IMG/VR virus record: IMGVR_UViG_3300005529_001111
Coordinates: 1 to 22,954 of that record
Source: a virus
DNA: 22,954 bases
Reading direction: 5' to 3' (one strand)
The notes beneath the pieces are model-generated. The model saw only the letters and a list, made by a program, of their open reading frames with translations, ran no database searches and was not told where the DNA came from. Position numbers and translations under genes: made by a program. Numbering within the stretch: the first letter of the stretch is position 1; each line of letters starts with the position of its first letter. Of the stretch, positions 1,790-20,225 are shown piece after piece.

Positions 1790-2176
1790 TCACTCCTCGA
1801 ACACTATTTTTTCTTGCTTGTCCCAAGGAAGCTCGACAGCGGTGGTGAGATCCTTGATAGAAAGAGCAGATCGGCGGCGAAGGATGAGGAGCTTCTCCAG
1901 AACCGTTGGTGAGAGATACGCCAGCCGCAGCGTGCGGCTGATGAACCTGTCGGAGACTCTTTCGGCGACAGCGATATCCTGGATGGTCGTGACCTCGCCC
2001 CGCTCCAGCTGGCGTCGCCAATTCCAGGCGCGAGCAATAGCGCGCAGCAAGTGCGGTTCCTGGGCGTGAGGCTCAACGGCGTCGATGTTTTCCGGCGGCA
2101 CGATCCATGGCCGGCCATTGCGGTGCTTCACCTTAAGCGGGATCACTACGCGGATGGTGGATGGCGCGGTGGTCAT
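1790..2176 (-). CDS. Small protein of the recombinase cassette
   Basis: A 128-residue hypothetical protein with a basic first half (KVKHRNGRPWIVPP) and a predicted helix-turn-helix around residues 55-90. The segment TTIQDIAVAERVSDRFISRTLRLAYLSP has the ParB/sigma-type pattern of a helix, turn and recognition helix. Its ATG at 2176 overlaps the stop of the recombinase gene as ATGA, which argues for translational coupling and a common role. It may be a DNA-binding accessory factor such as a directionality factor or cassette regulator, but this is inference from size, fold and position. I know it only as a conserved companion of this type of recombinase in alphaproteobacteria. Confidence 0.7.
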   Translation of the reverse strand: MTTAPSTIRVVIPLKVKHRNGRPWIVPPENIDAVEPHAQEPHLLRAIARAWNWRRQLERGEVTTIQDIAVAERVSDRFISRTLRLAYLSPTVLEKLLILRRRSALSIKDLTTAVELPWDKQEKIVFEE

Positions 2177-3507
2177 GCGATGGCCTCCTCACGCGTTGGG
2201 TTCAGCATCTCGCGCATCACGGTGCCGAGACCTTCCGTACGCAGATCGACGGCGAGCCCATCGGTGGTCACGGTCACCCTTTCCACCAGCAGCCGCACGA
2301 TGCGCGCCTGCTCGGCCGGGAACAGCGCCGACCAGACATCGCCGAACTGGTTAATGGCGGTAACCACGTCTCGTTCGTTGACGGAGGGCGCTTCCCGCCG
2401 CGCGGCAGCGACGGCCTGCGCCACGATTTCGGGCGCGCGCACCAGCTGCTGGATCTCCCGCACCACAGCGGTTTCCACTGCGTCGGCGGGCAGGCGCAGC
2501 GGTACAGCGGTGCATGCCGTCGCGCGCCCCCGGAGCGCATCGGTCGAGACGTAGTACCGATAGAGCCGGCTACCCTTTCTGGTGTGGGTAGGCGTCATCG
2601 CCCGTCCGGCTTCAGTGAAGATGAGGCCCTTGAGCAGCGCCGGCGTTTCCCGCCGCGTCGCAGCCGCCCGTGCGCGTCCGTTGGAGGCAAGGATGGCGTG
2701 GACCTTATCAAAGGTGTGTCTGTCGACGATCGCCGCGTGCTCGCCGGGATAAGCCGTCCCCTTGTGGACCGCTTCGCCGAGGTAGATGCGATTGTTGAGG
2801 AGCTTGTAGACGATGCCTTTGTCGAAGAGCTTCCCACGCTTGTTGGTGAGGCCTTCTGCGTTGAGCTCGCGCACGAGATTGGTCATCGATCCCAGTTGAA
2901 CAAAACGCTGGAAAATGCGCCGAACGAGCCCGGCCTCGACAGTATTGACGACCAGCTTGCGCTCGACCACGTCGTAGCCGAGGGGCGCCCAGCCGCCCAT
3001 CCACATGCCTCGCTTACGCGATGCCGCGAACTTGTCTCGGATACGCTCGCCGATCACCTCGCGCTCGAACTGCGCGAAGGAGAGCAGGATGTTAAGCGTC
3101 AGCCGACCCATCGACGTCGTGGTGTTGAAGGACTGGGTCACCGAAACGAAGGTCACGCCCTTGCGATCGAACACCTCGACCAGCTTGGCAAAATCCATGA
3201 GCGAGCGGCTGAGGCGATCGATTTTGTAGACCACCACAACGTCGATAAGCCCCGCCTCGATGTCGGCGAGTAACTGCTTCAGCGCCGGGCGCTCCAGCGT
3301 GCCGCCGGAAAAGCCGCCGTCGTCATATCTGTCGCGAAGCAGCACCCAACCCTCCGCCTTCTGGCTGGCGGCGAAGGCTTCGCAGGCTTCGCGCTGGGCG
3401 TCGAGGGAGTTGAACTCCTGGTCCAGTCCTTCCTCGGACGATTTTCGGGTGTAGACCGCGCAGCGCAGCCGTCGCGGCGCAGCGGCGGAGGTCTGTGACC
3501 GCTTCAT
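2173..3507 (-). CDS. Large serine recombinase
   Basis: The 444-residue protein has a resolvase/invertase catalytic domain at about residues 14-165: CAVYTRKSS with the likely nucleophile Ser23, the NSLDAQREACEAF helix, YKIDRLSRS, and a FAQFEREVIGERIRDK long-helix region. A Recombinase domain follows (about 190-290; EGLTNKRGKLFDKGIVYKLL, IYLGEAVHKG). Such enzymes integrate or excise mobile DNA through a 5'-phosphoserine intermediate. The zinc-ribbon cysteines usual in large serine integrases are absent; only three cysteines are present and none are paired. ATG at 3507 is preferred over an upstream in-frame extension that would run back into the DUF2924 gene, because it gives an ATGA overlap with the DUF2924 stop. 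It is the central gene of a four-gene leftward cassette. It may integrate the phage-like region on its right or only its own cassette. Confidence 0.92.
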   Translation of the reverse strand: MKRSQTSAAAPRRLRCAVYTRKSSEEGLDQEFNSLDAQREACEAFAASQKAEGWVLLRDRYDDGGFSGGTLERPALKQLLADIEAGLIDVVVVYKIDRLSRSLMDFAKLVEVFDRKGVTFVSVTQSFNTTTSMGRLTLNILLSFAQFEREVIGERIRDKFAASRKRGMWMGGWAPLGYDVVERKLVVNTVEAGLVRRIFQRFVQLGSMTNLVRELNAEGLTNKRGKLFDKGIVYKLLNNRIYLGEAVHKGTAYPGEHAAIVDRHTFDKVHAILASNGRARAAATRRETPALLKGLIFTEAGRAMTPTHTRKGSRLYRYYVSTDALRGRATACTAVPLRLPADAVETAVVREIQQLVRAPEIVAQAVAAARREAPSVNERDVVTAINQFGDVWSALFPAEQARIVRLLVERVTVTTDGLAVDLRTEGLGTVMREMLNPTREEAIA

Positions 3508-4013
3508 CGGACGCCCCCTGCGGCACGGAGACCAAAGAAGCGCCAGCCGTTCCAGCGGGTACCGGCGATGGCGCGGGCGATGGCCGAGAGCGACTTGTAT
3601 TTGCGGCCCTCGAACTCGAAGCCGTCGCGCAGCACCGTGACGGTGTGCTCGACCCCGTTCCACTGCCGGACCAGCCGCGTACCGGCGACCGGCCGGCGCG
3701 GATCCACGATGCGCGTCTTGCGGTCCGGATTTCCGCGGAGCTCGTCAGCGAGAGCGTCAAGGAGCCGGACGGTCTCGCGCGAGGGGCCGCCGTAGGCCAG
3801 TTCCTGAATGCGGTAAGCGAGCCGGAGCTCGAGGAAGGACCGGCTGTTGTTGGGAGCATCCGCCCCGAAGAGGGCCCGCCACTCTGCTTTCAACCCCGCG
3901 ACGCTCATGCGCTTCAGCGCCATCAGCCGCGTCAGGACCGTCGTATCGCGGCTCTCGTCCTCGCCAGGTCGCGCCGGCTCCGATGCGTTCGCTCTGGCCG
4001 ACATTTGCGGCAT
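3504..4013 (-). CDS. DUF2924 family protein
   Basis: The 169-residue product matches the DUF2924 pattern. It has an N-terminal helical part with LKRMSVAGLKAEWRALFGAD and ELRLAYRIQELAYGG, then a compact beta-rich C-terminal part with GTRLVRQWNGVEHTVTVL, GFEFEGRKYKSLSAIARAIAGTRWNGWRFFGL. The last segment resembles the small DNA-associated domain known from recombinase neighbours. DUF2924 genes are regularly found directly upstream of serine recombinases in alphaproteobacteria; no biochemical role is established. ATG at 4013 is chosen because GGGGGAG lies just upstream; a longer reading to 4082 has no such site and would overlap the preceding gene. Its stop overlaps the recombinase start (ATGA). 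Confidence 0.85.
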   Translation of the reverse strand: MPQMSARANASEPARPGEDESRDTTVLTRLMALKRMSVAGLKAEWRALFGADAPNNSRSFLELRLAYRIQELAYGGPSRETVRLLDALADELRGNPDRKTRIVDPRRPVAGTRLVRQWNGVEHTVTVLRDGFEFEGRKYKSLSAIARAIAGTRWNGWRFFGLRAAGGVR

Positions 4014-9663: not shown

Positions 9664-10479
9664 GTGGTTCTCGACCTCAACAGCGGCTCTCGCTTCGTCT
9701 ACGGCCGACCAACGGGCGAGCCGACGCTCGGTGAGCGGATCGGCGGGCTCGTCGACGCCGCACTCCTCGCCGAACGCGAGGCGATGCCGCCGCGCAACTA
9801 CCTCGGTGCCTCCCGTATCGGCGAGCCCTGTGCTCGGCGGCTCTGCTACGAGGTGATGCACCTGCCGCCCGACCCCGGGAAGGCGTTCACCGGGCGGCTC
9901 CTGCGCGTATTCGAGACCGGCCACCGCTTCGAGGGGATGACGATCAGGTGGCTCCGGCTCGCAGGCTTCGACCTCCGCACCTGTAAGCGCGACGGCTCGC
10001 AGTTCGGCTTCTCCGCGGCGGACGGGAGGTTCCAGGGCCACATCGACGGCGTCATCGTTGATGGTCCCGATGTTGGATTTCCGTACCCGGTCCTCTTCGA
10101 ACATAAGGCCGTCAACGATGCGACCTGGTCGGAGATCGTCAAGCGCGGACTGCGGTCCGCGGCTCCGGTCTACTGGTCGCAGGTCCAAGTCTATATGGCC
10201 TATCTCGAAATCGAGCGAACGCTCGTCGTCGCGCTCGACAAGGACACCGAGGCGCTCACCTTCGATCTGATCGCCTTCGATCCCACCGCCGCGCAGGATC
10301 TCTCTGACAAGGCTGTCGCCGTGCTTTCCGCCGTTGACGCTGGCGAGCTTCTGCCCCGCATCGCGGCGCGCGAGGATTTCTATCTCTGCCGGATGTGTCC
10401 GTTTGCAGGCCGCTGCTGGCACGCTGAGCAGCCTCCGAAGTCTGTGCCAAGCCTTCCATCTTGGCGGAGGGCGGCGTGA
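9664..10479 (+). CDS. Cas4/RecB-like PD-(D/E)XK exonuclease
   Basis: The 271-residue protein has the PD-(D/E)XK pattern: GHIDGVIV with Asp128, then FEHKAV with Glu146 and Lys148, and a downstream YWSQVQVYMAY helix (QxxxY-like). Cysteines at 56 and 61 (EPCARRLCYE) and three at the C-terminus (Cys242, 245, 251; CRMCPFAGRC) fit the iron-sulphur cluster seen in Cas4 and AddB-type nucleases. It probably acts as a DNA exonuclease providing single strands for the RecA-like ATPase and the OB-type protein encoded upstream. It starts with GTG at 9664 behind GGTGAG, and its stop overlaps the primase start. No other CRISPR component is present, so it is a phage recombination nuclease rather than a CRISPR protein. 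Confidence 0.85.
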   Translation: MVLDLNSGSRFVYGRPTGEPTLGERIGGLVDAALLAEREAMPPRNYLGASRIGEPCARRLCYEVMHLPPDPGKAFTGRLLRVFETGHRFEGMTIRWLRLAGFDLRTCKRDGSQFGFSAADGRFQGHIDGVIVDGPDVGFPYPVLFEHKAVNDATWSEIVKRGLRSAAPVYWSQVQVYMAYLEIERTLVVALDKDTEALTFDLIAFDPTAAQDLSDKAVAVLSAVDAGELLPRIAAREDFYLCRMCPFAGRCWHAEQPPKSVPSLPSWRRAA

Positions 10480-13400
10480 TCGACCTCAACGACGTCGCGC
10501 CAGCGCGCCCGGCCGAGCGCTTCGACCTCGACCGCCTGGTCGCGCAACTCCGCGCGACGGCGCGTTCCTGGGTGCCGGCGCACTTCCCGCGAGGTCGGCG
10601 CGAAGGGCACGAATGGCGGCTCGGCGGGATCGACGGTCGGCCGCCGCGGAAGCAGGGCTCATGCGTCGTCGCGCTCGACGGTCCGAACGCCGGCGATTGG
10701 ATCGACTTCGACGGCTCGGGTTCCGGCGGTCCGCTCTCGGCGCTCGAACAGGCCACCGAACTCGCCGGATACGACCTCTTCGCCTACGCGGCGGGGCTCG
10801 TCGGCGGCGCTAGCTCCCTCGTCACAAAGTCGACTCGAAGCCGCGCAGCCGCCCCCATGGCGGCTGCCGGTCCCGCTAGGGGCGCGCACGAGGCTGCGGT
10901 CGAGACCGAGGTCCGGCACATCCTTGCCCGCGCCGCGCCGCTCGCCGGGACGCTCGCCGAGCGGTGGCTCGCAGCTCGCGGCGTCACCACACCTGCAACT
11001 GACGATCTTCGGTTCGTTGCCGACCTCACCCACTTCGAGACCAAGACCGGCTGGCCCGGCATGGTTGGGACCGTGCGCGGTCACGACGGCGCCGTGCTCG
11101 GGCTCCACCGCACCTACCTCGCGCTGGACGGAACCGCTAAGGCGCCGGTCCGTAACGCACGCATGTCGCTCGGCGAGGTCCATGGCGGCGCGGTGCGCCT
11201 TGCGAAAGCGGTCGATGGGCTGATCGGCCTCGCCGAGGGGATCGAGACCACGCTCGCGGTGATGACCGCCTGCCCCGACCTGCCGATGTGGGCGGCGCTC
11301 TCTGCGGGCAGCCTCGCCGACCAGCGCCTTCCGGAGTACATCCGGCGTGTCGTCGTCTGCGCTGACCATGACGCTGCCGGCGCTGGGCTCGATGCCGCGC
11401 GCCGACTGGCGGTGCGATTGGTCGACGAAGGCCGATCGGTGTTCATCGCGCTCCCGCCGCGCGCCGGCGATGACTTCAATGACGTCCTTCTCCGCGATCG
11501 CGCCGAGGAGGTGAGGCGCGTCGTCGAGGCGGCAGAGCCCTACGAGCCCAGTCCGCCTGGCGGTCCGGCACCCTCCAGTCGTTCGTCCTCCCGCGCTGCC
11601 CGCGGCCTGCCGCTCTTCTTCCCCGATCGGCCGAGCAACCGGCCGCTGGTCCGCGCCGATGACGGCGACCTCGCACGTCTTGCCGGGACGGCCTGGGAGC
11701 AGCTGATCGAGGCGAACAGCCCACCCTGGCTGTTCCGCACGGCCGCCCGCCTCGTCTGGGTGGAGCGCGATGACGAGGGCGCGCCGCTCGTCCGTTTCCT
11801 CGATGAGGATCGCATGGCGCATGCGCTTGCTCGCATCGCTGATTGGCGGCGGGCTAGCGCCAAGGGCGACCTCGTGCCGGTCAGCCCGCCGGCGCGCGTC
11901 GTCAAGGACGTGCTTGTCACCGCCGACCCGCTCGTGCCGGTGCTCGCCGGCATCGTCGCGGCGCCGATCTTCGGCCGCGACGGCGCAGTCGAGACGACGC
12001 CGGGCTATCTCGCCGGCTCCGCCGTGCTCTTCGAGGCCGAGCCGGGGTTCGCCGTCGGCGAGATCCCGGCGAAGCCCAGCGGAGACGAGGTCGCCGCAGC
12101 CAAAGCGCTGCTCCTCGACGAGCTTCTCGGCGACTTCCCGTTCACCAGCGACGCCGAACGCGCGCACGCCGTGGCACTCCTGCTCCTGCCCTTCGCCCGG
12201 GCGATGATCAACGGGCCGACACCCCTTCACCTCATCGAGAAGCCGACGCCGGGGACTGGCGCCACTCTGATGGTCGACGCCGTCGCCACCATCGTGACCG
12301 GCCGCCCGGCGAACATCATGACCGAAGGACGCGACGAGGACGAGTGGCGGAAGCGTCTCACCGCCAAACTCCGCTCGATGCCCGTCCTCCTGGTCATCGA
12401 CAACGTCCGCGGCAAGCTCGACTCCTCGGCGCTGGCGGCAGCGCTCACGGCGCCGAGTTGGGAAGACCGCCTCCTCGGCCGCTCCGAGATGGTGCAATTC
12501 CCGATCCGCTGCTGTTGGATCGCGACCGGCAACAACCCCGAGCTCTCCAACGAGATCGCCCGTCGGATCGTCCGCATTCGGCTCGACGCCGGCGTCGACC
12601 AGCCTTGGCGACGCGAGACCTTCCGCCACCCGGAGCTTCTTGGCTGGCTCCACGAGAAGCGCGCGGCGCTCGTCCGCGCCTGCTTGCTCCTGGTGCAGAA
12701 CTGGATCGCAGCCGGGCGGCCGCGCTCGCCGAAGCGGGTCGGCAGTTTTGAAGCCTGGTCCTCGATCATGGGCGGAATCCTGTCGACGGCCGGCATCCCC
12801 GGTTTCCTCGGCAACATCGACGAACTCTACGAGCGGTCAGACAGCGAAAGCGAGAGCTGGCGCTCCTTCGTGACCCGCTGGTGGAGCGAGTTCCGCACCG
12901 CGCCGGTACGCGTCGCCGAGATCCTGCCGCTCGCGCTCAGCGCCGAGCCACCGCTCCCGGTCTTCGCGGCGACCGAGCACGGCCAGCGTATCAAGCTCGG
13001 CTCGCTCCTCTCGCGCGTCCGCGACCGCGTGTTCGCGGTCGACCACTACCAGCTTCGCGTCGGCCAGAACGGACTTCACGAGGGCGTCATGCGGTGGCGC
13101 CTGGCGATCGAGGCCGGCGACGAGCGCACGACGTCGAGCAAGCCCGGTGGGTCTGAGCCGGCTCGGTGGGTCTTCGATTCCGAGACCCACCGAAAAAATG
13201 TCGAGGGGAATCAAGGCCGCGGTGGGTCAGGTGGACGAAGTGGGTCTCTTCTTAATGCGCGAGAGGATTCCTCTCTCACATATAGAGTCTCTGGAACCAT
13301 CCCACCGAGACCCACCGACCCACCGGACCCGCAGTATTCCTGGGATTCCAGCTGGTGGGTCATCCATTACCCGTCCTGGCAGGACCCCACCGGACCCTAT

Positions 13401-13553
13401 CGCCGATGGCTCGCGGCCTGGTCGCGTGGACCGCCGGTCCGGGAAGCCAGGCCCTCACCACAAACCCATGAGCGGGACGGCGGCCCTCCAGTCGCCAAAC
13501 AGGTCGGACCGCCGCCCCGCGACCATCACGATACCCAAGAGGATTCGTCATGA
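10476..13553 (+). CDS. Primase-helicase (Toprim plus ATPase)
   Basis: The 1025-residue protein combines a Toprim primase half and a helicase-like half. Toprim motifs are GLAEGIETTLA (Glu near 255) and CADHDAAGAG (Asp297, Asp299), with an ERWLAARGV segment before them. The ATPase half has LLVIDNV (Walker B, Asp642) and a sensor-like WIATGNNPELSNEIARRIVRI. The Walker A position reads PGTGATL (593-597), without the usual lysine. Residues after about 885 are low-complexity and overlap a dense DNA repeat cluster. This enzyme should prime and unwind DNA at the element's own origin. GTG at 10476 is preferred over TTG at 10461 because GGAGG lies just upstream and it forms a GTGA overlap with the nuclease stop. 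Confidence 0.85.
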   Translation: MIDLNDVAPARPAERFDLDRLVAQLRATARSWVPAHFPRGRREGHEWRLGGIDGRPPRKQGSCVVALDGPNAGDWIDFDGSGSGGPLSALEQATELAGYDLFAYAAGLVGGASSLVTKSTRSRAAAPMAAAGPARGAHEAAVETEVRHILARAAPLAGTLAERWLAARGVTTPATDDLRFVADLTHFETKTGWPGMVGTVRGHDGAVLGLHRTYLALDGTAKAPVRNARMSLGEVHGGAVRLAKAVDGLIGLAEGIETTLAVMTACPDLPMWAALSAGSLADQRLPEYIRRVVVCADHDAAGAGLDAARRLAVRLVDEGRSVFIALPPRAGDDFNDVLLRDRAEEVRRVVEAAEPYEPSPPGGPAPSSRSSSRAARGLPLFFPDRPSNRPLVRADDGDLARLAGTAWEQLIEANSPPWLFRTAARLVWVERDDEGAPLVRFLDEDRMAHALARIADWRRASAKGDLVPVSPPARVVKDVLVTADPLVPVLAGIVAAPIFGRDGAVETTPGYLAGSAVLFEAEPGFAVGEIPAKPSGDEVAAAKALLLDELLGDFPFTSDAERAHAVALLLLPFARAMINGPTPLHLIEKPTPGTGATLMVDAVATIVTGRPANIMTEGRDEDEWRKRLTAKLRSMPVLLVIDNVRGKLDSSALAAALTAPSWEDRLLGRSEMVQFPIRCCWIATGNNPELSNEIARRIVRIRLDAGVDQPWRRETFRHPELLGWLHEKRAALVRACLLLVQNWIAAGRPRSPKRVGSFEAWSSIMGGILSTAGIPGFLGNIDELYERSDSESESWRSFVTRWWSEFRTAPVRVAEILPLALSAEPPLPVFAATEHGQRIKLGSLLSRVRDRVFAVDHYQLRVGQNGLHEGVMRWRLAIEAGDERTTSSKPGGSEPARWVFDSETHRKNVEGNQGRGGSGGRSGSLLNAREDSSLTYRVSGTIPPRPTDPPDPQYSWDSSWWVIHYPSWQDPTGPYRRWLAAWSRGPPVREARPSPQTHERDGGPPVAKQVGPPPRDHHDTQEDSS
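13147..13361. repeat. GTGGGTC iteron-like cluster (candidate origin)
   Basis: Exact GTGGGTC occurs at 13147, 13166, 13222, 13240 and 13355, and its complement GACCCAC at 13184, 13309 and 13317: eight copies in 215 bp, where chance predicts far less than one. The second and third copies form an 11-bp stem (13163-13173 with 13183-13193) next to AAAAAA. The middle (13261-13300) is comparatively A/T-rich with a TCACATATAGAG stretch. The cluster lies in the 3' end of the primase-helicase gene, a usual site for phage origins. Assignment as an origin is inference. Confidence 0.6.
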
Positions 13554-14304: not shown

Positions 14305-14858
14305 GCAGGAAGAGCACACGACGGGGGAAGCGGCCGGTCACGCTGGCCGGTGGCTTTGCTTCAGACAACGTCGTCACCCGCAAGGTGACCGAGCAGGATC
14401 CGGACGGTGTCACCGTCACCCATCACCGCACCGTTGACACGATCCGCCTCATGCTCGAGGCCGGCACCATCACCGAGGCGATGCATGATGCGGCACGCGA
14501 CTTCCAGGCGGCGTTCACTATCGCCAACCTTGATCGCATGCCAGGCATCGACTGGGAGATGATGATCCGGCCGCTGCCTGGATCGAACCGACAAGCCGAT
14601 CTGTCGGACACACAGGTCGGTGCCCGCGAACGCGTGTCTGGTGCACTCGAAGCCCTCGGCGGCTATGGCTCTCCGGCAGGCTCCTGCGTCTGGTTCGTCG
14701 TCGGGCTGCAGACCTCCATCCGCGAGTGGGCGATCCGGCAGGGCTGGGGCGGGCGTCCGGTCAGGCAGGAGAGTGCGCAAGGGATTCTCGTCGCTGCGCT
14801 CGGCGTGCTCGCGAAGCACTACGGGTATCGTGATCGAGGCCAGAGGCGATGTGCATGA
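14301..14858 (+). CDS. DUF6456-like protein
   Basis: The 185-residue protein carries the DUF6456-type C-terminal pattern: MHDAARDFQAAFTIANLD, then ARERVSGALEALGG, SCVWFVVGLQTSIREWAIRQGWGG and AQGILVAALGVLAKHYG. These are largely helical and resemble the DNA-binding part of cell-cycle and phage regulators in alphaproteobacteria. The N-terminus is very basic (MSRKSTRRGKRP). As the last gene of the operon, it may be a late or feedback regulator; no experiment on this family is known to me. The start is fixed by the ATGA overlap with the previous gene. Confidence 0.75.
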   Translation: MSRKSTRRGKRPVTLAGGFASDNVVTRKVTEQDPDGVTVTHHRTVDTIRLMLEAGTITEAMHDAARDFQAAFTIANLDRMPGIDWEMMIRPLPGSNRQADLSDTQVGARERVSGALEALGGYGSPAGSCVWFVVGLQTSIREWAIRQGWGGRPVRQESAQGILVAALGVLAKHYGYRDRGQRRCA

Positions 14859-14966
14859 GGAGGCTCGTGTCGAAGGAATCGAGATGCGTCGACATATCCA
14901 TGCCGACCTGTCGATGCTGTCGACCCGTGCCCTCGGCCGGGGTCACGGAGGGCTGGTAGGCGTATC

Positions 14967-14976
14967 GCAGTACTGC
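14967..14976. promoter_or_regulatory. Palindrome before the toxin gene
   Basis: GCAGTACTGC is a perfect 10-bp palindrome 15 bases before the HigB-type ATG. Toxin-antitoxin operons of this class are usually repressed by the antitoxin binding such a palindrome. A CTATAG sequence right after it could be a -10 box. Confidence 0.4.
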
Positions 14977-14991
14977 TATAGGAATGGGTGG

Positions 14992-15372
14992 ATGAAACCG
15001 CCGTCGAAGCCGCTCGTCTGGATCGCCTCGTCGCGTGACGATCTTCGGGAGTTCCCGGCGGACGTCCGGCGAGTGATGGGCCAGGCGCTCGACGATGCGC
15101 AGCGAGGTGGTGAGCATCCTCGGGCCAAGGCCCTTCAGGGATTTGGCGGGCGCGGCGTCTTGGAGATCGTGGACGACCATGACGGCGACACGTACCGCGC
15201 CGTCTACACCATCAAGTTCGCGGGCACTGTCTACGTGCTGCACGCGTTCCAGAAGAAGTCGAAGAAGGGCCGGAAGACGCCAGCGTCGGATATCAACCTC
15301 GTGAAGCAGCGTCTCAGGACTGCGGAAGCCCACTACCGCCAAACCATGGCAAGGAGAAGGGATCATGACTGA
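14992..15372 (+). CDS. RelE/HigB-type toxin (phage gp49-like)
   Basis: The 126-residue protein fits the RelE/HigB-like family of ribosome-dependent mRNA interferases, more exactly the phage gp49-like branch: PLVWIASSRDDLREFPADVRRVMGQALDDAQRGGEHPRAKALQGFGG followed by VLEIVDDHDGDTYRAVYTIKFAGTVYVLHAFQKKSKKGRKTP. The strand pattern with YRAVY, YVLHAFQKKS and the basic end is diagnostic. ATG at 14992 follows a GGAATGGGTGG site and gives the normal family length. It overlaps the antitoxin start by eight bases. In a prophage such a pair can stabilise the element or act in defence. Confidence 0.85.
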   Translation: MKPPSKPLVWIASSRDDLREFPADVRRVMGQALDDAQRGGEHPRAKALQGFGGRGVLEIVDDHDGDTYRAVYTIKFAGTVYVLHAFQKKSKKGRKTPASDINLVKQRLRTAEAHYRQTMARRRDHD

Positions 15373-15694
15373 CGGGATCATTCCGAGCAGCGGCAATGTG
15401 TTCGCCGACCTCGGCTTTGAGAACGCGGAGGAGGAACTCCTCAAGGCGCAGTTGGTCCGCACGATTCGTGCGCTGATCAAACGGCGACGCCTCACGCAGG
15501 CGAAGGCCGGCGCAGCGCTCGGGCTGGCCCAATCCGACGTGTCCGCGCTCATCAACGGCAAAGTGGCGCGCTTCTCCCTGGAACGGCTGCTGCGTTGCGT
15601 GCGCCGCCTTGACCGCGAGGTAGCGATCGTCGTGCGGCCGACACGCCGCAGCCGTCGCGAACGTGCGCGGACGGTCAGGAAGGCAGCCGCCTGA
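15365..15694 (+). CDS. HigA-type XRE antitoxin
   Basis: The 109-residue protein has an XRE helix-turn-helix at about residues 28-80: LVRTIRALIKRRRLTQAKAGAALGLAQSDVSALINGKVARFSLERLLRCVRRLD. This is the usual antitoxin partner of gp49-like HigB toxins, encoded after the toxin. The tail is strongly basic. The start is ATG at 15365 behind AAGGAGAAGG, overlapping the toxin stop, so toxin and antitoxin are translated together. It probably also represses its own promoter through the palindrome upstream of the toxin. Confidence 0.87.
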   Translation: MTDGIIPSSGNVFADLGFENAEEELLKAQLVRTIRALIKRRRLTQAKAGAALGLAQSDVSALINGKVARFSLERLLRCVRRLDREVAIVVRPTRRSRRERARTVRKAAA

Positions 15695-18669: not shown

Positions 18670-18906
18670 TCAGTCAGGCTCCAGATATCGGGTCGCGGTA
18701 TCGGCCCTCGGCTTGATTCCGAACCGCCTCTCAATCTCGGCGCGCAGGCGGTAGGCCAGCGCGCGCTCCTCGTCGAGCAGATCCATGTCGCGGCTGCGGC
18801 TATAGGCGACGTCCCATGCCTGATCGCCGTAGTGCGCGATCCAGGCATTGGCTGCCTCCTGGATCAGCTGCCGCAGTTCCCGTCTTTGCCGCAACCGTCC
18901 AAACAT
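18670..18906 (-). CDS. Small hypothetical protein
   Basis: A 78-residue leftward protein: MFGRLRQRRELRQLIQEAANAWIAHYGDQAWDVAYSRSRDMDLLDEERALAYR and a charged end. The RDMDLLDEERALAYR piece is familiar from small phage-neighbour proteins. It is helical with no catalytic motif. ATG at 18906 is chosen over an earlier in-frame ATG at 18954 because the extra residues have no family character. It sits between the lysis cassette and the ParB-methyltransferase gene, in reverse orientation. Confidence 0.55.
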   Translation of the reverse strand: MFGRLRQRRELRQLIQEAANAWIAHYGDQAWDVAYSRSRDMDLLDEERALAYRLRAEIERRFGIKPRADTATRYLEPD

Positions 18907-18965
18907 GGCGCGCGTCTCTGCCAGTCCACCTCCGACAGTACGCCGCCAAAACATCAGGACTGCAA

Positions 18966-20225
18966 GTGAGCCGGCTAGCGAACAGATTGACGGTCGTCTC
19001 CCGGCCGCTCCGCGAGCTCGTCCCTTATGCGCGCAACGCCCGGACGCATTCGGACGAGCAGGTCGCGCAGATCGCCGCCTCGATCGCCGAGTTCGGCTTC
19101 GTCAACCCTGTCCTTATCGACGAGAGCGGCCAGATCATCGCCGGGCACGGCCGAGTCCTTGCAGCGGAGAAAATCGGTTTATCAGAGGTGCCCGCGATCA
19201 TCCTGGCTCACCTGACGGACGCGCAGAAGGTCGCCTTCCGCATCGCAGACAACCGGATCGCCGAGAACGCGGGGTGGGACGAGGAATTGCTTGCGGTCGA
19301 GCTCGCGAGCCTCCGCGACCTCGACTTCGACCTCGACCTCACGGGCTTCGACGCTAACGAGATCGAGCGCATCCTGGCGGGTGACGCCGACACCGAGACG
19401 GCAGGCCTGACCGACGACGACACGGTTCCCGAAGCAGAGCCTGAGGCAGTCACGAGGCCAGGCGACGTCTGGGTCCTCGGCGACCACCGGCTTCTCTGCG
19501 GCGACGCAACAGTCCTTGCCGATGTGGAAAGGTGTCTTGGCGGGTCGCTCGCCGACATGACTTTCACCGATCCGCCCTATCGCGTCGCTTACGAGGGGAA
19601 AGGCTCGACGGCGGGCAACCGCAAGAAGATCAGCAACGACGACTTGTCGTCGGCCGACTTCGCCCGCTTCCTGACCGTTGCTTGCACAAACATCGTCGCG
19701 GTGACCAAGGGCGCCGTCTACATCGCCATGTCGTCGTCGGAGCTGCATACGCTCCGAGCCGCTTTCGAAGCCGCCGGCGGTCACTGGTCAACGTTCATCA
19801 TCTGGGCGAAGAACGTCTTTACCCTCGGCCGCTCCGACTACCAGCGCCAGTACGAGCCGGTCCTCTACGGCTGGAAGAAGGGCCACGACCGCTTCTGGTG
19901 CGGCGCGCGCGACCAGGGCGACGTCTGGTCGATGAAGAAGCCGCGATCGAACGACCTGCACCCGACCATGAAGCCGGTCGAGCTCGTTGAGCGGGCGATC
20001 CGCAACTCCTCGAAGTCGCGCGATATCGTTTTCGATCCGTTCGGCGGCTCGGGCACCGCGGCCATCGCCGCCGAGAAGCTCGGCCGCCAGGCCCGGATGA
20101 TCGAAATCGACCCGGTCTTCTGCGACGTGATCGTTAAGCGCTGGCAGGATTTCACCGGCAAGGCCGCCACGCTCGAAGACGACGGTCGCAGCTTCGATGA
20201 ATCCGTCACAGCCCGCGCAAGTTGA
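18966..20225 (+). CDS. ParB-domain DNA methyltransferase
   Basis: The 419-residue protein joins an N-terminal ParB/Srx-like domain (about 5-110; LRELVPYARNARTHS, FGFVNPVLIDESGQIIAGHGRVLAAEKIG) to a class beta DNA methyltransferase. The methyltransferase has motif IV DPPY (202-205) before motif I DPFGGSGT (357-364), with the S-adenosylmethionine site at FGGSGT. Expected product: N6-methyladenine (DPPY type). GTG at 18966 with AGGA upstream gives the normal beginning; the open frame extends to 18816 but overlaps the leftward gene. Such phage methyltransferases protect DNA from restriction or mark packaging sites. No restriction enzyme gene is near it, so it is an orphan. Confidence 0.88.
   Translation: MSRLANRLTVVSRPLRELVPYARNARTHSDEQVAQIAASIAEFGFVNPVLIDESGQIIAGHGRVLAAEKIGLSEVPAIILAHLTDAQKVAFRIADNRIAENAGWDEELLAVELASLRDLDFDLDLTGFDANEIERILAGDADTETAGLTDDDTVPEAEPEAVTRPGDVWVLGDHRLLCGDATVLADVERCLGGSLADMTFTDPPYRVAYEGKGSTAGNRKKISNDDLSSADFARFLTVACTNIVAVTKGAVYIAMSSSELHTLRAAFEAAGGHWSTFIIWAKNVFTLGRSDYQRQYEPVLYGWKKGHDRFWCGARDQGDVWSMKKPRSNDLHPTMKPVELVERAIRNSSKSRDIVFDPFGGSGTAAIAAEKLGRQARMIEIDPVFCDVIVKRWQDFTGKAATLEDDGRSFDESVTARAS

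Follow-up and report, generated by a model that had tools for sequence, protein, structure and literature searches.

An iteron array, proposed as a replication origin, inside a viral primase-helicase gene and its covariation with the C-terminal domain of the encoded protein

Introduction

What is the role of a short DNA word that is repeated on both strands inside the coding sequence of a viral primase-helicase? The question is raised by the copies of GTGGGTC/GACCCAC at the 3' end of such a gene in the window, by which the whole analysed stretch of virus DNA (22,954 bp) is meant. An earlier note had read these repeats either as the replication origin of the element or as the array of priming sites of its own primase-helicase.

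The array and its gene in the window

Over both strands, the window contains 10 copies of GTGGGTC; eight of them lie in the array (Table 1), and single copies are found at 681 and 4510. The expectation from dinucleotide shuffles of the whole window is 2.76 +/- 1.75 copies, i.e., about 0.026 per 215 bp. The eight exact copies in 215 bp are real and far above chance. The recount confirmed what the earlier note had stated of the layout: five direct and three inverted heptamers in 215 bp, a chance expectation of about 0.03 copies, an 11-bp hairpin (arms 13163-13173 and 13183-13193) adjoined by AAAAAA, and an A/T-rich middle, where the GC content is 48% against about 70% in the flanks and 67% in the window. 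The note had also named a similar density of the motif elsewhere as a refutation; in the window and in the relatives searched, concentration is seen at the array only. The pattern GGTGGGTC fits seven of the eight window copies. A scan of viral contigs for GGTGGGTC pairs returned many stretches, and this pattern by itself was rejected as unspecific.

Table 1. Features of the primase-helicase gene and of its repeat array in the window
Feature	Position	Strand	Remarks
Primase-helicase ORF, proposed initiator	10461..13553	+	DUF7146 + Toprim_3; phrog_10537, DNA primase PHROGs
C-terminal DNA-binding domain (predicted)	12906..13118	+	residues about 816-886; models and covariation
Recognition helix (model)	about 12975-13016	+	residues 839-852
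Wing hairpin (model)	tip about 13080-13088	+	residues about 863-886; tip 874-876
Iteron array, proposed replication origin	13147..13361	.	common frame AGACCCACC = GGTGGGTCT
Iteron copy 1, GTGGGTC	13147..13153	+	
Iteron copy 2, GTGGGTC	13166..13172	+	
Iteron copy 3, inverted	13184..13190	-	
Iteron copy 4	13222..13228	+	
Iteron copy 5	13240..13246	+	differing flank: AAGTGGGTC
Iteron copy 6, inverted	13309..13315	-	
Iteron copy 7, inverted	13317..13323	-	followed by a one-mismatch copy at 13326
Iteron copy 8	13355..13361	+	
Inverted pair, copies 2 and 3	13163..13193	.	11-bp stem, 9-nt loop
A/T-richer middle, candidate unwinding region	13247..13308	.	48% GC

The whole array is inside the ORF, at its 3' end. 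The encoded protein is built of a Toprim primase, a D5-like helicase, a C-terminal winged-helix-like domain and a drifting tail; the next gene, which is RuvC-like, starts at 13550. A Foldseek search with the modelled residues 403-892 returned NrS-1, SaPI5 Rep and the D5/E5 helicases (E about 1e-5 to 1e-7). The P-loop of the window helicase (residues 595-605) reads PTPGTGATL. Alanine in place of the Walker A lysine was also found in the relatives checked, including the archaeal virus vir525 (PAPGTGATK). This motif served as the search pattern in two scans for relatives, and loci retrieved with other patterns have it too. Since the usual P-loop lysine is missing, the classical ATPase activity of this helicase is uncertain.

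Other genes of the record may be mentioned here. A Gp49-like protein (DUF891, HigB-type; 14620-15372) is followed by a small HTH protein (15365-15694), possibly as a toxin-antitoxin pair. At 18816-20225, a ParB-like N-terminal domain is fused to an N6/N4 DNA methyltransferase (phrog_498). The left end of the record, 1-879 and 2173-3663 (-), encodes a protein with an abortive-infection C-terminal domain and a large serine recombinase.

Arrays in related genes

Twenty relatives, about 50-56% identical, came from the first scan; after two further scans the set comprised 174 loci, mainly from alphaproteobacterial genomes and viral contigs, and a class-wide genome search added few members. The laboratory strains Erythrobacter cryptus DSM 12079 and Elioraea tepidiphila DSM 17972 are among the carriers of the family. 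An array was present at the matching place in 162 of the 164 relatives with enough sequence. In these relatives, one 8-mer occurs 5-15 times within the 500 bp past the helicase match, compared with 2-3 copies (maximum 5) in 500-bp control regions up- and downstream. The literal GTGGGTC was not found at the array position of any of the first 20 relatives, and the window word AGACCCACC occurs in none of the relatives. The absence of the literal heptamer was considered as a refutation of the origin and dropped once the relatives' own words had been found: every first-scan relative of this helicase type whose 3' end is available carries a repeated word of its own. The earlier note had left it to close relatives to show whether the repeats are kept as the protein tail drifts. 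The array is kept in place and the tail does drift, but the word itself is not kept; what the note missed is that the word varies among relatives, covarying with the protein's own C-terminal domain.

At least 26 words share the frame A-N-N-Y-Y-C-M-C, which in full is A1 N2 N3 Y4 (T/C/A)5 C6 (A/C)7 C8 N9; exceptions are few and confined to bases 1 and 8. Base 6 is invariant and base 8 nearly so, the variable positions being 2, 3, 4, 5, 7 and 9. Some words were re-framed by hand ahead of the covariation step. The order of the copies is similar across the relatives' arrays, and 83 of 84 non-redundant arrays contain an inverted pair whose stem is at least 8 bp long (stems 8-14 bp). Most relatives' arrays also contain an alternating purine-pyrimidine tract with a median length of 26 nt, against 9 nt in controls; the window has no long tract of this kind, only CACATATA (8 nt). 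The tract, 20-46 nt long, separates the left half of the array from the right half (for example, in L006, L142 and L223). Its sequence drifts and its alternation is kept, which suggests a Z-DNA-prone or easily opened element.

No array was found in the Acidobacteria locus L219, which was searched at the same place, and in the distant Ruegeria phage RpAliso (L468) the helicase is present and an array near the gene was not found. A related helicase is encoded by Methanosarcinales virus vir525 (BK063673.1, L467; protein 34% identical). The array of this virus lies outside the gene, immediately 3' of it in A/T-rich DNA, and consists of nine copies of a separate word (consensus ATACCCGCA); of the 12 ACCCGCA in 60 kb, 9 are in this array. 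Base 7 of the archaeal word is G, which occurs in no bacterial member.

Residues that track the bases of the word

Distances between words correlate with distances between proteins in residues 816-850 (rho 0.50) and 850-881 (rho 0.42), compared with rho of -0.01 to 0.18 in nine segments of the helicase; the Toprim domain was left out of the compared stretch. Covariation shows that the word follows the C-terminal domain and not the helicase. Base 2 is tracked most strongly by column 848 (and 845), base 3 by 844, base 4 by 840, base 5 by 876 and base 7 by 874/875.

Contingency tables were made from 88 non-redundant sequences. Thr844 is present in all 51 cases of G3. Arg or Lys840 accompanies T4 (57/57), and His, Gln and others at this position accompany C4 (30/31). 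Residue 876 is Ala with T5 in 64/68 and Thr, Ser or Val with C5 in 19/19, His874 is found in 50/50 with C7 and in only 1/38 with A7, and Lys or Arg848 is never paired with G2. The window is consistent with these pairs (Ser848-G2, Ile844-A3, His840-C4, Val876-C5 and Glu874-A7).

For the INDEPENDENCE and prediction part, the tree was built from the helicase alone. About 55 word changes were placed on this tree. Base and residue changed on the same branch in 18/21 cases for base 7, 14/14 for base 5, 14/14 for base 4, 18/20 for base 3 and 16/20 for base 2, when random placement gives 1-2.5. The random-branch null disregards branch lengths; the effect is large nonetheless. With all sequences of more than 75% identity removed, a single residue gave the correct prediction in 83/84 cases for base 4 (nearest helicase neighbour: 29), 85/86 for base 7 (50), 77/86 for base 5 (63), 70/88 for base 3 (18) and 56/73 for base 2 (19). 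For a later set of 20 distinct arrays, 96 of 100 bases were predicted correctly by the code and 84 by the nearest neighbour. This set includes two words new to the training (ACGTCCCCC and ACACTCCCC) and one locus that is only 58% identical, and many of the 20 arrays are close to the training set. The automatic frame of one held-out word (L316) was shifted; 96/100 is the value as computed, and it becomes 98/100 if corrected.

A natural half-swap is provided by L151 and L153, the recognition helices of which are practically identical and the wings different; if the poorly conserved last base is disregarded, bases 5 and 7 are the only ones at which their words differ. More half-swaps were seen in L384, L457, L330 and L385 against their nearest helicase relatives. 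By covariation only, and with no binding data, the C-terminal domain is concluded to set the specificity for the iterons.

The word could instead be a parS-like partition site or a methylase-related site read by another phage protein. The ParB-methyltransferase fusion described above (18816-20225) would be a candidate reader encoded in the window. Against this stands the matching of word changes by specific residues of the primase-helicase, and such a role has very little likelihood.

The AlphaFold models (me74afefc6502 and mddb881ba2e67) were built from the alignment, and the words were unknown to them. In these models, residues 840-848 share a helix (839-852), and the beta-hairpin that follows carries 874-876 at its tip. 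The predicted layout is that of a winged helix, with the helix for bases 2-4 and the wing for bases 5 and 7. With the C-terminal domain alone, Foldseek gave no match at E<=0.001 and VIA gave many winged-helix entries, all weak (Z about 5-6). Neither search singled out a known family, and the P4 origin-binding domain was not among the best rows. Binding of Z-DNA, an idea prompted by a Z-alpha match (VIA rank 3, tied) and by the alternating tract, was rejected: this match is no better than those of other winged helices.

DNA or peptide under selection

The repeats might be low-complexity coding repeats kept by selection on the tail peptide, and in favour of this, 79 of 84 relatives keep the reading frame open from one end of the array to the other. 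Several observations contradict it. The words occur in both strands and in various frames, stop codons lie inside the array in five relatives, and the vir525 array is outside the gene. In 33 close pairs compared by codon position, substitutions in the helicase were distributed as 252/100/1736 and those in the tail spacers as 181/187/204, i.e., equally over the three positions. Word bases diverged by 0.8% and spacers by 6.7%, the words changing about 8 times less often. Selection on a repetitive peptide is practically ruled out.

Evidence for a probable origin, and other possible functions of the array

Ten phage records share the word ACGTTCCCC, with 9-10 copies in each, and those copies whose positions were examined fall within the array. 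In four host genomes, the array was the sole cluster among the positions examined, and 16 pieces of 16-20 kb contained 0 or 1 word copies outside it. In all 16 relatives' records, the GC skew on the left side of the array was more negative than that on its right side. The minimum of the detrended skew was near the array in most of them, the mean distance being 0.14 of the half-window against 0.5 by chance. In most, the shift was also seen within genes of one strand, and in several the gene direction does not change. The 16 records include several that are related, and causes other than an origin can also shift the skew. In the window, no skew switch is seen at the array (left -250, right -160).

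The C-terminal domain could bind the array as an operator or as a copy-number or incompatibility control site, by which the replication genes would be autoregulated, rather than as an origin. Iterons often control copy number as well. In support of this, the second iteron region of P4, crr, is just 3' of the alpha gene, and covariation speaks to recognition and not to its outcome. The arguments against are that the searched records contain no second cluster to act as origin, that the GC skew of the relatives shifts at the array and that a replicative helicase and a primase are fused to the reading domain. A control site instead of an origin is considered unlikely.

In the other reading offered by the earlier note, the Toprim primase would start primers at the repeats. 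The protein is indeed a primase, and phage primases pick short start sites. To our knowledge, no primase chooses sites of 7-9 bp in both orientations by a helix and wing readout. Moreover, L015-L017, which have the primase half in common and another helicase, have no such array. The location of the covarying residues in the C-terminal domain speaks against the priming-site reading, with the reservation that the Toprim domain was outside the compared stretch; this reading is regarded as highly improbable.

The earlier reading of the array as a replication origin is supported. Very probably, it is the iteron origin of a phage or prophage situated in the gene of its own initiator, with both origin activity and binding being inferred. 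In the proposed mechanism, the initiator would be the Toprim-primase/D5-like-helicase fusion, with the origin embedded in the 3' end of its gene. The C-terminal winged-helix domain would bind the 9-bp word, the recognition helix reading bases 2-4 and the wing tip bases 5 and 7. Several bound protomers may then build one or more helicase rings on the array, and the A/T-rich or alternating middle would melt. The helicase would be loaded, the Toprim domain would prime, and the forks would run outward. With the binding site and its reader encoded in a single gene, joint change is possible, and many mutually foreign origin types can exist.

Significance

Knowledge of the coevolution of initiators with origins, and of the basis of replicon incompatibility, usually comes from a small number of examples. 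In the family described here, about 55 word switches were inferred, and they point to candidate base-by-base contacts with no data other than sequence. For uncultured phages, the origin becomes predictable from the protein, the word being given by five residues, and origin recognition, specificity switching and prophage compatibility become directly testable.

A bolder reading is favoured by a narrow margin. It assumes a widespread class of virus replicons with initiator and origin in one gene, the specificity of which switches in step via a near-deterministic code (residues 840, 844, 848, 874 and 876 for bases 4, 3, 2, 7 and 5), with dozens of mutually foreign origin types. What drives this diversification is a matter of speculation; prophage incompatibility or competitors that target the origin are possible causes. 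Some genomes have two members, with different words (L156/L174, L164/L178 and L206/L209) or with the same word (L140/L146 and L159/L181), which might be tied to the compatibility of coexisting prophages.

Comparison with known systems

The open-access literature searched contained no account of this family or its code; subscription papers were mostly outside the search. The papers found do not describe a many-word, residue-by-residue code. In the RepA of the Vibrio PLE, the DNA-binding domain and the origin covary and are swapped as modules, and the PLE origin is the target of the phage nuclease Odn (PMC8263062). The PLE differ in having two origin types, semi-palindromic iterons of about 30 bp, a RepA_N domain and no base-by-base code. 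For geminivirus Rep, the iteron words vary among relatives, and comparative analysis identified potential amino acid-base pairs (Arguello-Astorga and Ruiz-Medrano 2001, cited in PMC12548392). Those proteins, however, are rolling-circle initiators of plant viruses with another fold, and their iterons are upstream of rep.

In its mechanistic kind, the system is inferred to belong with the P4 alpha and SaPI Rep initiators, i.e., self-recognising helicases with an iteron origin (PMC4234260, PMC7581432). It shares with them a D5/SF3-like helicase, here fused to the primase, and short iterons at the 3' end of the gene. The annotated type 1 repeat of P4, TGTTCACC, fits the word frame at bases 2-9. 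P4 differs in having two separate regions, ori and crr, neither of which is inside the alpha coding sequence, whereas here there is one array in the gene. No second cis region like the P4 ori and crr was found in the window or in the relatives searched, many records of which may be incomplete. Comparison of family profiles with the single P4 alpha sequence by hhalign, which has low sensitivity, found no homology in the helicase and C-terminal part.

SaPI Rep and SCCmec Cch2 are self-loading helicases, the C-terminal domain of which recognises short iterons directly downstream of the gene (PMC7581432, citing Ubeda et al. 2007). The SaPI5 Rep structures 7ola and 7pds are fold matches of the helicase model at an identity of only about 9-12%. 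In the staphylococcal elements, the origin is downstream of the gene, and in the family described here it is within the coding sequence. Unlike those elements, this family belongs to viruses of mainly Alphaproteobacteria and has the inverted pair of 8-14 bp and the alternating purine-pyrimidine tract. The position of the iterons within the initiator coding sequence, which is met by the window array in the ORF 10461-13553, is that of the lambda type: the lambda O gene likewise holds its own iterons. Lambda O is no helicase-primase, however, and reads its iterons with the N-terminal domain.
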